From assembly GCA_033391075.1 (NCBI GenBank), contig JAWPMV010000001.1:6448001-6512000 (forward strand): a stretch of 64,000 nt of DNA. The letters are read 5' to 3'. A model generated the notes under the pieces. That model had not been told where the DNA came from, searched no databases, and saw only the letters and a program-made list of their open reading frames with translations. Numbering within the stretch: the first letter of the stretch is position 1; each line of letters opens with the position of its first letter. Both the position numbers and the translations under genes were made by a program. Source of the stretch: Bacteroidia bacterium. Its GTDB lineage: Bacteria > Bacteroidota > Bacteroidia > J057. Positions 45,182 through 54,236 of the stretch are shown here, one piece after another.

Positions 45182-45272
45182 GTGTTACCGTGTTACCGTG
45201 TTAGAGTATTAGCGTGTCAGGGACATCTATAAATTTAACGCTAAAACTCAAACACCCTAATACACTAACACC
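45182..45272. repeat. Octamer-armed palindrome, copy 4
   Basis: Left arm units GTGTTACC, GTGTTACC, GTGTTAGA, GTATTAGC, GTGTCAGG; complement of right arm GTGTTAGT, GTATTAGG, GTGTTTGA, GTTTTAGC. The longest copy, with a direct duplication of one unit. Fills the gap between the M61 start and the response regulator stop. Confidence 0.82.
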
Positions 45273-45277
45273 TTATT

Positions 45278-45970
45278 TTACTCCACCACCATCCGAAAGC
45301 CCTTGCCGTGGACATTTTCGATCTTGATATTAGGATCTACTTTAAATCTTTTTCGCAGTTTGCTGATAAAGACGTCCATGCTGCGGGCATTGAAATAATT
45401 ATCATCGCCCCAAAGGGTTTTGAGGGCCTCATCGCGAGGAAGGAGGTCATTTTTATTAACGAGGAGGAGGCGAAGTAGGTCTGCTTCCTTGGGAGAAAGA
45501 CGATCTGCTTCTCCATTATATGAAATGGTATTGAGGCGGTAGTTAAATTCAAAATTCCCAAAAGAAAATTCATCCGGCAGGCGGTCCTGAGGCGCGCTAT
45601 CTCCGGATTTGGCTCTTTTCAAAATCGCTTTTACTCGATAGAGGAGTTCTTCCGAATCGAAAGGTTTGGTAATGTAGTCATCTGCCCCGATCTCAAAGCC
45701 TTTGTGTACATCTTCTTTCATTGTGCGGGCCGTGAGAAAAATAATCGGTATGTCTGAATTGATCTCTCGTATTTCATTACCCAATGCGAACCCATCTTTT
45801 TTCGGCATCATCACATCCAAAATGCAGAGGTCAAAACCTTCACTTTTGAAGGCTTCAAATCCTGCTTCCCCATCTCTTACGAGGGTCACATTATAGTCAT
45901 TCATTTGCAGGTAGTCTCGTAGAACAGCTCCAAAGTTTGCTTCGTCTTCTACCAATAAGATCCTTGCCAT
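45278..45970 (-). CDS. OmpR/PhoB-family response regulator
   Basis: 230-aa DNA-binding regulator: receiver domain with acidic pocket VEDE (8-10), phosphoacceptor Asp52 (LCILDVMMPKKDG), Thr in FLTAR and Lys in ITKPF; C-terminal winged helix (about 130-230) with LSPKEADLLRLLLVNKN and YFNARSMDVFISKLRKRF as recognition helix. It is downstream of its partner kinase by 59 bp. Four TTAAC boxes at helical-turn spacing upstream of the divergent acidic-repeat gene are the probable binding site. Confidence 0.95.
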   Translation of the reverse strand: MARILLVEDEANFGAVLRDYLQMNDYNVTLVRDGEAGFEAFKSEGFDLCILDVMMPKKDGFALGNEIREINSDIPIIFLTARTMKEDVHKGFEIGADDYITKPFDSEELLYRVKAILKRAKSGDSAPQDRLPDEFSFGNFEFNYRLNTISYNGEADRLSPKEADLLRLLLVNKNDLLPRDEALKTLWGDDNYFNARSMDVFISKLRKRFKVDPNIKIENVHGKGFRMVVE

Positions 45971-46029: not shown

Positions 46030-47601
46030 TTATGCTAAAGGCAGCGCAATGCTGAATATACTTCCTTTTCCGAGTGTACTCTGAACCGCAATTTTTCCTT
46101 GGTGTGCGTCTACAATATCCTTCACATAGCTCAATCCCAAACCAAAGCCTTTTACATCGTGCAAATTACCGGTGGAAACCCGATAGAAACGCGTAAATAT
46201 ATGTTGTAAATCAACCTTGCTGATCCCCAAACCTTCGTCCTTCACATGGATCAGTAAATGCCCATCCCGATTTTCGGTTTTCACTTCAATATTGGGAGCT
46301 TCCGGACTATACTTATTTGCATTGTCCAGCAGGTTATACAAAATATTTCCTATATGCACCCTATCTGCCACCAATAAAGATTTCGTAGCCGAAAGATCCA
46401 TCTCCAATTTCCCTTGCCTTTCCAGGACCTGAAGTCTAGTATGTTGTACGGCAGAAGAAATCAGGGCGTGAACATCCACTTCTTCTTTCCGCAACTGAAT
46501 CTCCTGCTTCTCAAACTTCGCTGCTTGCAATACTCGCTCCACCTGTCGATTCATTCGACTATTTTCCTCTTTAATAATGCCCGTATAGCGACCAATCCCA
46601 CCATCTGAGGCCTGAACCTTGGGATTATTGAGGGCATCTGCCGCCAATGAAATGGTTGCGATTGGAGTTTTGAGTTCATGGGTCATGTTATTGATAAAAT
46701 CATTTTTCATCTCAGACAATTGCTTCTGACGAAAAATGGTTCGCACACTCACCCAAAAACATAGCAATATAATTCCAGAGAATATTAAAGAAGCCAAAGC
46801 CTGTGTCCAGACCTCCTGAAGAGCTACAAAACCTTGATTGGGAAAAAGAAGATGCAAAAAAACCTTTTCCCTGCTTTGCTGAAAAGGAAATAACTGAACC
46901 TTATGCCGGGAGTCCATGAATTCATTCAGGGTATTCTGAGAAGAGCGATACAGGATTTCCCGGTAAAGAGGTACTTCGACCAGAAACTCTACGCTTTGTT
47001 CAATCCCATGAGATGCCAGACTTTCTATCAGAATGGTATCCAAATCCAGGGAATCAAATCTGTCTCTGACTGGTACGGGACTGGAATGTACACCCGCTAA
47101 GGTGGCATTGATGATATCCACCATTCGGGGATTGGCAGGCATTTCGATCTGCATATCCAGGAATGCACTGTCCTTACTAACAAAGACAAAGGATTCCATT
47201 CCCTGAATGAGGAAGGCCGAGTCTTCGGGAATCATTTCCAGATTTTCCGTAACGAAAGTGATGCTATCTCTATTCCGCAACTTTCGCAAGGTCCTTTCTT
47301 TCGGCACCTCACCTCCTTCCAAATCGATAGGACTGGCATTGACCTGCACCTTCATTTCATCCTGAAAATTTCCTTCTCTGTCAGCGATATCGCGACTGCG
47401 GCTCACACGTATGTATTTGGTTTTTACCGACTCACTATAAAGTCGATCTACTACCTCATTCATAGCCTGGCTCACACTGGCATTGAATTGCTCCTCATTG
47501 AGGGCCATGGCCCGCCGAGTCTGCTGTACCTGCAAGACTACGATCCCTATCATAGCCAATGCCATTAAGCCTATTATTATATAGATTTGATTCTGCTTCA
47601 C
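46030..47601 (-). CDS. Membrane sensor histidine kinase
   Basis: 523 aa. Membrane helix 1 (about 5-24), a periplasmic domain of about 235 residues without a recognised fold, helix 2 (about 265-287), HisKA with NNMTHELKTPIATISL (phosphoacceptor His, about 310), and HATPase_c with NLLDNANKYSPEA, DEGLGIS and KGFGLGLSYVKDIV. Starts at GTG. It forms a two-gene operon with the OmpR-type regulator and is divergent from the acidic repeat protein gene; the signal is unknown. Confidence 0.94.
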   Translation of the reverse strand: MKQNQIYIIIGLMALAMIGIVVLQVQQTRRAMALNEEQFNASVSQAMNEVVDRLYSESVKTKYIRVSRSRDIADREGNFQDEMKVQVNASPIDLEGGEVPKERTLRKLRNRDSITFVTENLEMIPEDSAFLIQGMESFVFVSKDSAFLDMQIEMPANPRMVDIINATLAGVHSSPVPVRDRFDSLDLDTILIESLASHGIEQSVEFLVEVPLYREILYRSSQNTLNEFMDSRHKVQLFPFQQSREKVFLHLLFPNQGFVALQEVWTQALASLIFSGIILLCFWVSVRTIFRQKQLSEMKNDFINNMTHELKTPIATISLAADALNNPKVQASDGGIGRYTGIIKEENSRMNRQVERVLQAAKFEKQEIQLRKEEVDVHALISSAVQHTRLQVLERQGKLEMDLSATKSLLVADRVHIGNILYNLLDNANKYSPEAPNIEVKTENRDGHLLIHVKDEGLGISKVDLQHIFTRFYRVSTGNLHDVKGFGLGLSYVKDIVDAHQGKIAVQSTLGKGSIFSIALPLA

Positions 47602-47741
47602 TTCTTCAAATATATGGGTAAATGAGCAATTCAGGGGCCTTTTTAAATATCTAAAAAGGAGAAGACCTTACAATAGCTTTCCATAAGCACCTGACTTAGA
47701 GAACTTTATATTTACAGATTGGGTTTCAAAGGTCTCTGAGA

Positions 47742-47778
47742 TTAACTTTTCCTTAACAATCTTTAACTAAGCTTTAAC
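47742..47778 (+). promoter_or_regulatory. Four TTAAC direct repeats, candidate response-regulator operator
   Basis: TTAAC occurs at 47742, 47753, 47763 and 47774, that is with 11-, 10- and 11-bp spacing, so all copies face one side of the helix. This is the usual geometry for OmpR/PhoB-type dimers and resembles PhoP boxes (TTAACA repeats). The last box ends 22 bp before the -7 element at 47801, in the place of the -33 element. Confidence 0.7.
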
Positions 47779-47800
47779 CCTTTGGTGTAGAAAAGCCGCT

Positions 47801-47808
47801 TACCTTTG
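47801..47808 (+). promoter_or_regulatory. Promoter -7 box of the acidic repeat gene
   Basis: TACCTTTG fits TAnnTTTG and is 50 bp before the ATG at 47858. No TTTG at 19-21 bp upstream, in line with activator dependence. Confidence 0.65.
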
Positions 47809-47857: not shown

Positions 47858-49225
47858 ATGAAAAAGGTACTCATTACCCTCGTGAGTCTATTAGTACTAC
47901 TGGTAACTCTCAACAACCTCCATGCTCAGGACAAGAAAGGAAAGCATGAAGTTCATGTAAAAGTCAAGAAAATCATCAACGGAAAAGAAACTATGGTGGA
48001 TTCAACCTTCACCATTGATGGAGATGCCGATCTGGACGAGATTATGAAGATACTTGGCAAGGATATGGGTGAATTACATGAGCATAATGACGGAGATGTT
48101 GATGTTAAAGTAAAAAGGACGAAACGAATTGAGCGCAGAGTCATCAAAGAAGGTAAAGACGGAGAGAAGGAAGTTGAGGTTCATGTAGAAGTTGTAGGTG
48201 ATGAAGATGAGGATGGTGGCGTATACATTTTCAAATCAGATGATGGAGACGAAAAAAAGGTAAAAATTCTCATCGACGAAGATGTGGATGTAAAAGATAA
48301 GAATGTCTTCATCATGAAGAGCGCAGATGGAAAGATCATTGAAATGGATGGAGAAGATAAAGATGTGATTATCATCAAAGACGGAAAGGTCATTGACATG
48401 AAAGGAGAGGATAGTGGGAAGAAGGTAATCCGAATAAATGTGAACAAAGAGGGAGATGAAGATGGAGAGACTATGATTTGGAAATCAGAGGATGGAAAAG
48501 TGATTGAGATTGATGGAAAGGGAGGAGAGAAAAAAGTGATCCGAATAAATGGAGACAAAGACGGAGAGACCATGATTTGGAAGTCCGAGGATGGAAAAGT
48601 AATTGAGATTGATGGAGATGATGGTGAGGAAAAGGTGATCCGAATAAAAGTGGATAAGGATGGAGGCGAAAAAGGGGAAAGCATGATTTGGAAATCCGAG
48701 GATGGAAAAGTAATTGAGATTGATGGAGATAAGGTTCAAAAGAAAGAAATGGTTTTTATCCGCAAATCAGGAGATGGAGAGGGAGAACTGGACGATGAAG
48801 ACATCAAGAAATTGCTCAAGGAAAAAGGAATTGACTGGGAAGAAATGAAAGCAGATGGTGCTACGATCAAGAAAAGCAGTAACATCAATGTGAGTATCAA
48901 TCCCATCAATGATGAAGATAAAAAAGCCCTGGCAGGAATGGGATTAGCTGAAAAAGATTATAACGGAGGTCTGGAAATAAGTGAAATGATGATGAAAGTG
49001 GAAAGCGGAGGCCCTGTTATGATGCAAGTAGCTACTGAAGAGAGTGGGCATTTGACAGCTGTGGTGCGTGATACTGAAGGAGAAGTGATTTCAAAAACTG
49101 TTTTGAAAGAATCCTCAGACGCATACAAAATCTATCTCAATCTTGATCAGTCAGGAAGTTACTTTATCACCTTAAGTCAAGGTGGCAAGTCCCTGACGCA
49201 GAAATTAGTCATCAAAAAAGCATAA
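47858..49225 (+). CDS. Secreted acidic repeat protein
   Basis: 455 aa from the ATG at 47858; the frame can be extended to a TTG ten codons upstream but the signal peptide starts here (MKKVLITLVSLLVLLV.., ending LHAQ). The mature protein is very rich in Asp, Glu, Lys and Gly and made of degenerate beta-strand repeats of 32-38 residues around WKSEDGKVIEIDG; three nearly identical copies start at about residues 203, 235 and 273, and weaker ones precede them (FKSDDGDE.., MKSADGKIIEMDG). The end, YKIYLNLDQSGSYFITLSQG then ..TQKLVIKKA, resembles a T9SS type A sorting domain. Probably an exported, maybe cation-binding, surface protein; function unknown. Likely controlled by the divergent kinase/regulator. 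Confidence 0.8.
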   Translation: MKKVLITLVSLLVLLVTLNNLHAQDKKGKHEVHVKVKKIINGKETMVDSTFTIDGDADLDEIMKILGKDMGELHEHNDGDVDVKVKRTKRIERRVIKEGKDGEKEVEVHVEVVGDEDEDGGVYIFKSDDGDEKKVKILIDEDVDVKDKNVFIMKSADGKIIEMDGEDKDVIIIKDGKVIDMKGEDSGKKVIRINVNKEGDEDGETMIWKSEDGKVIEIDGKGGEKKVIRINGDKDGETMIWKSEDGKVIEIDGDDGEEKVIRIKVDKDGGEKGESMIWKSEDGKVIEIDGDKVQKKEMVFIRKSGDGEGELDDEDIKKLLKEKGIDWEEMKADGATIKKSSNINVSINPINDEDKKALAGMGLAEKDYNGGLEISEMMMKVESGGPVMMQVATEESGHLTAVVRDTEGEVISKTVLKESSDAYKIYLNLDQSGSYFITLSQGGKSLTQKLVIKKA

Positions 49226-52501: not shown

Positions 52502-53020
52502 ATGAGCACAGAAGCATCGCAAAATTCCCTGGACGGTCAGGCATTTAAAACCTTGTTCGATACCTATTTCAAAGGTATCCGGAACTTCCTGTACTATAAA
52601 TCCGGGAATATGGAGCTTGCTGAAGACCTCACACAGGATGCTTTTATGATCTTATGGAAAAAGAAAGATCAGATTGATCCCAGCAAGGTCAAAAGTTATC
52701 TGTATACCATTGCTCACAACCTCTTTCTCAACGAGATCAAGCACCAAAAAGTCGTAACGAAATTTGCCCAAAGACCTCAGATCAGAACCTCTTCCAATGA
52801 AACCCCTCAATTCCTGATGGAAGAAGGCGAATTTCAGGACAAACTCATTTCTGCCATAGAAGCATTGCCCGAAAAAAACCGCATCGTCTTCCTAATGAAC
52901 CGCATTGAAAAACTCACCTATAGAGAGATTGCAGAGCGTTTGGAATTGAGTGTGAAGGCGGTGGAAAAGCGCATGCACAAGGCGCTCCTGGAGTTGAGGA
53001 AGATTACTCCGAAGATTTAA
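52502..53020 (+). CDS. ECF sigma factor without adjacent anti-sigma gene
   Basis: 172-aa group 4 sigma factor. Sigma-2 with YYKSGNMELAEDLTQDAFMI and a core-binding WKKKDQID..KSYLYTIAHNLFLNEIKHQK (in parts, about 38-82), sigma-4 with LPEKNRIVFLMNRIEKLTYR and EIAERLELSVKAVEKRMHKA (about 120-165). This is the FecI-like/Bacteroidota type which is usually followed by a FecR-like anti-sigma factor, but here the next feature is a repeat cluster and the IS110 element. It may act alone, or the partner has been lost or displaced. Confidence 0.92.
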   Translation: MSTEASQNSLDGQAFKTLFDTYFKGIRNFLYYKSGNMELAEDLTQDAFMILWKKKDQIDPSKVKSYLYTIAHNLFLNEIKHQKVVTKFAQRPQIRTSSNETPQFLMEEGEFQDKLISAIEALPEKNRIVFLMNRIEKLTYREIAERLELSVKAVEKRMHKALLELRKITPKI

Positions 53021-53270: not shown

Positions 53271-54236
53271 TCAAATAAAATTGGGATTAAATTGAGTTCT
53301 ATTTTTAGCTACAGCAAAAGCCTGCCTTAAGAGTTTATGAGCAACGGCGACTCTAATGACTTTATGATGTTTACCCTTTTGTTTCATATTTTCTACCATA
53401 GATTGACAAAGAGGATTTACTTTCATCGCGGAAAAGGCTCCCATATAGAGATACTTTCTTGCCAAGGCCTGCCCCATTTTTACGATCCTCTCTTTTCCCT
53501 TTACAGAGCTACCCGATGTGAAAATACGAGGACATAATCCCAAATAAGCGACCAATTGTTTGGCAGACTCAAATCGGCTAAAGTCATGGGTAATACAGAT
53601 CAACAAACAAGCGGTCTTAGGTCCTATACCTGGGATGCTCATAAGCGACTGATAGCTTTGTGAACAATGCTCTTTACTAAGGCTGAGCATCTGTTGCTCC
53701 AGCCGCTTGATCGAAGCTTGTAGTTGTTCAATCAGATAAAGCTGCTGACTTCTTACCAAAGGATCCACTATGGGAACTTGATCCATAGCCTCGAACTGAT
53801 TACGAAGCATCTGGAGCTGTTTTTGAAATAGGTTAATGCTAGTCAAAAACTGCTGTAAGCGGAGAAAAATAGCCGCTGGAGGCTGCCAGGGCTTAATAAA
53901 GCTTCGGTGATCCCGTCCATATTGAGCAATTAAGCGCGCGTCTTGCTGATCGGTCTTGGTTCGCCTTAATTGCATCTGACTGTAGCGGCGAATGACCAGG
54001 GGATTAACTACACTTAGTTTAATCCCATGCTGATGTAAACTAAAGGCCAGGGATAAATAATAGGGACCACTTGCTTCCATGACACAGAGATCTCCTTGAG
54101 AGAGGACTTCGATAAATTTACAATGGCCCGAAGCAGTATTGGAATAGCTTTTTACCCAGCTTTTCCCACTATCATTAAGACAGACTACTTCAAAGCTTTT
54201 TTTGGCAATGTCGATTCCATATACGTTATTATCCAT
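53271..54236 (-). CDS. IS110-family DEDD transposase
   Basis: 321-aa recombinase: RuvC-like DEDD domain with Asp9 (YGIDIAK), Glu54 (VMEASGPYYL), Asp96 and Asp99 (RTKTDQQDARLIA), a central coiled-coil (about 130-190), and the Transposase_20 domain with SIPGIGPKTACLL (about 200-212) and the catalytic Ser region LCPRIFTSGSSVKGKERI (Ser241 in TSG the likely nucleophile). All catalytic residues are present and the frame is intact, so the element may be active. The ATG at 54236 is clear. These enzymes work with a bridge RNA made from the adjoining non-coding end. Confidence 0.95.
   Translation of the reverse strand: MDNNVYGIDIAKKSFEVVCLNDSGKSWVKSYSNTASGHCKFIEVLSQGDLCVMEASGPYYLSLAFSLHQHGIKLSVVNPLVIRRYSQMQLRRTKTDQQDARLIAQYGRDHRSFIKPWQPPAAIFLRLQQFLTSINLFQKQLQMLRNQFEAMDQVPIVDPLVRSQQLYLIEQLQASIKRLEQQMLSLSKEHCSQSYQSLMSIPGIGPKTACLLICITHDFSRFESAKQLVAYLGLCPRIFTSGSSVKGKERIVKMGQALARKYLYMGAFSAMKVNPLCQSMVENMKQKGKHHKVIRVAVAHKLLRQAFAVAKNRTQFNPNFI

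Follow-up and report, generated by a model that had tools for sequence, protein, structure and literature searches.

What reads the four evenly spaced TTAAC boxes that separate a two-component system from the divergently transcribed gene of an acidic protein, and which of the two transcription units do they serve? The boxes stand on the plus strand of the window, the 64,000-nt stretch of Bacteroidia DNA analyzed here, at positions 47742–47746, 47753–47757, 47763–47767 and 47774–47778. Their spacing of 11, 10 and 11 nt, described in an earlier note made from the letters alone, is exact, and repeats of about 10–11 nt are the direct-repeat geometry of an OmpR/PhoB-type operator. The array lies in a 256-nt intergenic region. 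To one side, on the minus strand and divergent from the acidic-protein gene as the earlier note had it, are the genes for a sensor histidine kinase with HisKA and HATPase_c domains (46030–47601) and an OmpR/PhoB-type response regulator (45278–45970). To the other, on the plus strand, is the gene for an acidic secreted protein of 455 amino acids, counted from an inner ATG (47858–49225), with an N-terminal NG..T..D domain and a C-terminal type A sorting domain of the type IX secretion system (T9SS). Box 4 occupies the −33 region of the promoter of this gene, 22 nt ahead of the −7 box TAccTTTG, which we confirmed at 47801–47808 on the plus strand. Farther out, the stretch between the regulator gene and that of an M61 peptidase contains short gtgttaccgt-like repeat units (45185–45225), and a sigma-70 region 2/4 protein is encoded at 52502–53020, near an open reading frame (ORF; 53271–54236) that we take, by resemblance, to encode an IS110-type transposase.

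Such an array is not expected by chance. TTAAC is scarcer in the window than expected (58 found versus ~119), and 300 dinucleotide shuffles of the window, searched on both strands, yielded no three-box or four-box array with periods of 10–12 nt. When the 256-nt intergenic region was shuffled 20,000 times, four boxes arose in none and three boxes in one of the sequences. A genome-wide scan for spaced TTAAC boxes, as proposed in the earlier note, was informative in part. The window array is the sole perfect four-box array of such spacing in its 9.49-Mb genome, and the scan led to seven phased promoters, discussed below; the bare pair, on the other hand, is not enriched, with 31 matches against 137 for the reversed pattern. 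Arrays with up to three mismatches likewise gave five matches against five for the reversed pattern. Both counts were left unused because signal was not separated from control. Three exact boxes occur at one other place only (C1:1285899), which we judged to be a chance occurrence: TAnnTTTG is missing from the next 80 nt, and no convincing gene follows.

To follow the array across relatives, we scanned 395 genomes of the same class with the exact four-box pattern, without selecting loci through the kinase. Exact arrays were found at 61 places in 59 of these genomes, compared to one place for the reversed pattern; the remaining 336 genomes carried no exact match to the pattern, which demands 20 exact bases. 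In 51 of the 61 cases, or 53 of 63 when two loci found through a kinase search are added, the array adjoins a relative of the window's kinase gene that points away from it. The ten arrays of this enlarged set that are not beside the kinase (L104, L105, L113, L121, L122, L123, L148, L154, L158 and L159) include six without a −7 box at 22 nt. A second scan, of named records and with the −7 box included in the pattern, returned at least 118 stretches and, among the matches listed, 119 arrays, nine of which repeat arrays of the first set. Among these listed matches, a kinase relative adjoins 94 of the 119 arrays; the share is 94 of 110 where 600 nt or more of upstream DNA are present and 88 of 98 where 1,600 nt or more are. 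The counts are somewhat low, as kinase-like ORFs that stand beside the arrays at L335 and L305 and are cut by the record end were missed. By name, 76 of 80 of these at least 118 stretches presumably come from Bacteroidota, and the other four are titled Chlorobiota (two), Stygiobacter (one) and Alphaproteobacteria (one). Records titled Pontibacter and Pedobacter are among those with an array.

The same association appeared from the side of the kinase. A search with its sequence had matches at E ≤ 0.001 in 59 of 60 related genomes, in many cases through the common kinase domain only. Among 30 kinase loci, the window's included, a TTAAC pair at 10–12 nt stands upstream of the kinase gene in 26, with four TTAAC boxes in a row in 12. 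Loci without a pair were L049 and L050, with less than 100 nt of upstream DNA in view, and L052 and L057, with enough. Comparative evidence, from the 51 of 61 exact arrays beside the kinase, ties the array to this kinase–regulator family.

A second constant is the distance to the promoter. According to PMC7366714, the Bacteroidota promoter consensus is TAnnTTTG at −7 with TTTG around −33. The window promoter carries this housekeeping −7 element, and in 47 of the 61 arrays (49 of 63) the distance from box 4 to the start of TAnnTTTG is exactly 22 nt. The other offsets within 80 nt among the 63 arrays were 23 (one), 25 (two) and 38 nt (one). The 22-nt gap was then compared over 158 distinct arrays, which were chosen for a −7 box at 22 nt and are informative in the gap only. 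The first base after the box is A in 55%, and elsewhere in the gap no base exceeds 41%. No conserved −33 element, that is, TTTG at a conserved spacing, was found in the gap, where TTTG occupies any one position in at most five of the 158 arrays; the TTTG that the window has at 47781–47784, 16 nt ahead of its −7 box, is not kept in relatives. The array therefore appears to stand in for the −33 element, as at activator-dependent promoters, which upholds the corresponding proposal of the earlier note. Through this base-exact distance, kept in 49 of 63 arrays, sequence comparison links the array to the divergent promoter.

On the kinase side, spacing is near-fixed in many relatives. The first set has TAnnTTTG 27 or 28 nt away in 40 of its 53 kinase-adjacent arrays; the second, among the matches listed, in 55 of 94, with 68 of 94 at 26–28 nt. 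No kinase-side TAnnTTTG was seen within 55 nt in nine of 53 arrays of the first set and, among the matches listed, in 20 of 94 of the second. The array would therefore often, but not always, serve two divergent promoters, and autoregulation is likely in many relatives, judged from this spacing. In the window, the −7 box of the kinase gene (TATATTTG, 47607–47614, minus strand) is 127 nt from the array, ~100 nt farther than in many relatives, and the acidic-protein side keeps 22 nt, which argues for an array that belongs first to the acidic-protein gene. The GTG start of the kinase gene comes only 5 nt after its −7 box (47599–47614), an arrangement that looks alike at L035 and L038, and the kinase mRNA may therefore be nearly leaderless.

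The product of the acidic gene is rich in charge of both signs (D+E 23%, K+R 17%). Its C terminus scores 29.9 bits with the T9SS type A model TIGR04183 (cut-off 23) and 22.7 with Pfam PF18962, under the cut-off of 27; apart from this secretion tail, the protein matched no Pfam or NCBIfam model. A predicted structure has a mean pLDDT of 62 and is confident only from about residue 311, in the C-terminal third. Searching the PDB with this model returned nothing at E ≤ 0.001, and many of the top hits were Ig/FN3-like β-sandwiches; we therefore assigned no function from the fold. Among 44 target proteins picked for alignment, 35 matched TIGR04183 at E ≤ 0.001. DegP/HtrA-type protease models matched two of the 44 (best 3.5e-26), and some targets may contain a PDZ or protease part, by sequence similarity.

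For the N-terminal domain, a model of the 'NG..T.iDT' type built from 22 of the 44 proteins matched 56 of 4,056 ORFs of the array loci. Of these, 55 begin no more than 300 nt downstream of an array; the remaining one overlaps its array, with a called start 53 nt before the array end. The search was limited to array loci, and the 22 training proteins came largely from the same loci; within this scope, the N-domain ORFs tie the array to the acidic-protein family as judged by position. At L121 and L148 (the latter found again as L341), the array precedes an acidic-type gene with no oppositely oriented kinase gene beside it, and the upstream DNA at L252, L275 and L278 is too short to judge the presence of a kinase gene.

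Targets are diverse across the 130 distinct kinase-adjacent modules with a −7 box, which we called as protein in 96, short RNA in 19 and no call in 15 cases. The caller was rough, taking the longest ATG-started ORF of at least 60 amino acids within 260 nt as a protein and a hairpin plus T-run as a terminator, with no control, and a few of its 96 proteins rest on doubtful frames, short or of low complexity (for example, L130, L289, L310, L347 and L359). Many of the protein targets look secreted and charge-rich by composition. In Bacteroidales-type records (L249–L366), the targets are in many cases small exported proteins rich in Lys and Cys (for example, L250, L260, L277 and L299), from which the window's protein differs.

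At short-RNA loci, the terminator follows 69–164 nt after the −7 box. Searching 14 such loci against Rfam gave only three tRNAs and no known small RNA above the gathering score. Five of the short-RNA targets (L094–L096, L162 and L163) share TGTTTAGTTAGTGCAA before the terminator, preceded by T in L162 and by C in the others. In family f40 (G053 and relatives), 24 of 46 genomes contain the 17-mer CTGTTTAGTTAGTGCAA, often in several copies, and the reversed pattern had no match there; the 17-mer perhaps marks a multi-copy small RNA family. At L100, L117, L134, L138, L140, L160 and L161, the terminator precedes a gene that we take to be aldehyde dehydrogenase-like; the short transcript could therefore also be a leader with attenuation.

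Which regulator might read the array? The window's regulator belongs to the OmpR/PhoB family (receiver domain PF00072, 103 bits; winged-helix Trans_reg_C domain PF00486, 57 bits). Its nearest curated model is the RprY equivalog NF051850, with 300.4 bits against a cut-off of 370; with the Bacteroidota PhoB model NF053854 it scores 170.5 bits, again short of the cut-off (270). Nine other regulators scored 264–356 (seven, from related kinase loci) and 233–234 (two paralogues from the same genome) with NF051850. For all ten, RprY was the only model at E ≤ 1e-60, and each stayed below its cut-off. We aligned 133 regulators, comprising 131 linked to arrays (the window's included and repeats between the two sets retained) and the two paralogues. 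The residues R196, S197, M198, D199, V200, I202, R206 and K207 are present at 93–100% in the 131 array-linked proteins. The presumed recognition helix, whose DNA-contacting residues we assume by analogy with PhoB, thus looks nearly invariant in the alignment. The two paralogous kinase–regulator pairs (L131, C1 near 4171596; L132, C5 near 114268) each face the gene of an exported protein, with a degenerate form of the array in between. At least three related candidate regulators are encoded in the genome.

To see what else might be controlled in the window's own genome, we read the loci of 30 of the 31 TTAAC pairs. Besides the window's, seven pairs have TAnnTTTG within 80 nt, at 22, 23, 33, 33, 43, 44 and 62 nt, and all but the 62-nt one are in helical register with the box positions; at both 33-nt sites, the slot nearest the −7 box is not TTAAC. 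Including the window's, seven promoters of this genome share the phasing. The 22-nt site precedes a redoxin (AhpC-TSA) gene with a presumed DsbD-like gene behind it, and, by resemblance, we take the targets of the 23-nt site to be BatD-like and those of the 33-nt sites to be MoxR-like and of the TonB/carboxypeptidase-regulatory type. The divergent targets of the two paralogous pairs are a DUF1573-like protein (43 nt) and a Cys/Lys-rich exported protein (44 nt).

Across the 395 genomes, two boxes with a −7 box at 22 nt occur in 107, compared to nine matches of the reversed pattern in eight genomes. We inspected 55 entries for these two-box sites, chosen partly for convenience, with one site entered twice and one kinase-adjacent module (L189) included. 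Recurring targets were DUF1573 proteins (six), MoxR ATPases (five), DUF5916-like (four), GLPGLI-like (two) and thioredoxin-like proteins (two) and one family of lipoproteins beside an ABC protein (seven). Pfam, run on one member each, identified the MoxR protein as AAA_3, confirmed DUF1573 and assigned the GLPGLI protein to Porph_ging, with nothing found for the lipoprotein at L214 or the BatD-like protein at L232; the other target names are presumptive. The resemblances to MoxR, BatD, redoxin–DsbD and DUF1573 suggest an envelope-maintenance set, and we read the phased sites as part of a response tending the envelope and exported proteins.

We consider it highly probable that the divergent two-component system uses the four boxes as its operator and, through the promoter at 47801–47808, drives expression of the charged secreted protein. 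The proposal of the earlier note that the pair activates the acidic protein gains support from the co-occurrence with the kinase, the 22-nt spacing and the link to the acidic-protein family, from which we infer binding and a positive sign. A signal would reach the periplasmic part of the kinase and cause phosphorylation of the regulator. The phosphorylated regulator would sit head to tail on the boxes, most simply as two dimers on boxes 1–2 and 3–4, and would touch RNA polymerase from the place of the −33 element, with transcription starting from TAccTTTG. The output would be a secreted, highly charged protein tailed for type IX secretion. Many relatives have the array 26–28 nt from the kinase −7 box, where it probably serves both directions, yielding more kinase and regulator; in the window's genome, this second link would have been lengthened by ~100 nt. 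Together with its paralogues, the pair most likely runs an envelope-stress-like response because same-phased sites precede other genes resembling envelope maintenance.

The main alternative is cross-reading by paralogues, in which the array would be bound mainly by a paralogous regulator or by several, with the neighboring pair as one reader. In the two other RprY-like pairs, the operators are likewise built on TTAAC, and their −7 boxes follow the first box pair at 43 and 44 nt, in the same phase; the paralogous regulators share most recognition-helix residues. We nevertheless regard this as unlikely, given that exact arrays adjoin a relative of this particular kinase in 51 of 61 cases and that the genome has no second perfect four-box array of this spacing. 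Box 4 lies over the −33 region, and a protein bound there could also block polymerase, which makes repression conceivable; the absence of a conserved −33 and the base-exact −7 spacing are rather what is expected of an activator that replaces the −33 element, and we hold a repressor to be quite unlikely.

The array might instead only autoregulate the kinase–regulator operon, leaving the divergent gene as a bystander. This would fit the kinase-side spacing of 27 or 28 nt, seen in 40 of 53 arrays and, among the matches listed, 55 of 94, and the presence of the kinase beside most arrays whatever the target. It fits poorly with the window, where the kinase distance is 127 nt and the target side keeps 22 nt, and with the acidic-gene loci L121 and L148, which carry the array with no oppositely oriented kinase beside it, and we see little probability in it. 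We give even less credence to a phosphate (PhoB) operator. Direct repeats with a period of about 11 bp fit a PhoB-type regulator, and a two-box site precedes genes at L201 and L202 that we take to be phosphate transporter-like; the regulator, however, scores far higher with the RprY than with the PhoB model (300 versus 170 bits), and none of the seven phased sites in the genome precedes a phosphate-uptake-like gene.

Returning to activation by the neighboring pair, a broader version can be put forward tentatively, as possible rather than probable. It would be an envelope response across Bacteroidota with a fixed four-box, two-way operator, interchangeable output and several module copies per genome. 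If true, the main output would vary by lineage between a type IX-secreted charged protein, a Cys/Lys-rich exported protein and a small regulatory RNA.

Known systems offer close parallels. The E. coli pho box is a direct-repeat operator of the OmpR/PhoB family. Operators of this family and the array share tandem repeats about one helical turn apart over the −35/−33 region and a regulator of the Response_reg plus Trans_reg_C type. They differ in the TTAAC core, the two box pairs and the Bacteroidota −7 box at exactly 22 nt seen here and in that the present array is often common to two divergent promoters. The PhoP boxes of Bacillus subtilis, four TTAACA-like repeats, come very close in core sequence and layout but belong to another phylum and promoter type, and no link to phosphate was seen at the sites read in the window's own genome. 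CpxAR–CpxP, an envelope stress module, resembles the present one in pairing a sensor system with a neighboring exported-protein gene, in probable autoregulation and in envelope-maintenance-like targets. This likeness concerns arrangement and target type, and the exported protein here is, unlike CpxP, T9SS-tailed and charged or replaced by a short RNA in some genomes. RprXY of Bacteroides and Porphyromonas is the nearest curated regulator family, from which the window's regulator is set apart by its score below the curated cut-off. PMC3646045 and PMC6032018 nowhere use the words motif, consensus, binding site or direct repeat, and no report of this Bacteroidota four-TTAAC operator was found in the open-licence literature. 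The operator logic is already known from the OmpR/PhoB family, and the geometry here is unusually clear and widespread. It provides a precise operator–promoter rule for an RprY-like family, namely four TTAAC boxes, 22 nt and TAnnTTTG, which allows the regulon to be predicted from genomes, with a secreted protein family and candidate small RNAs among its members.
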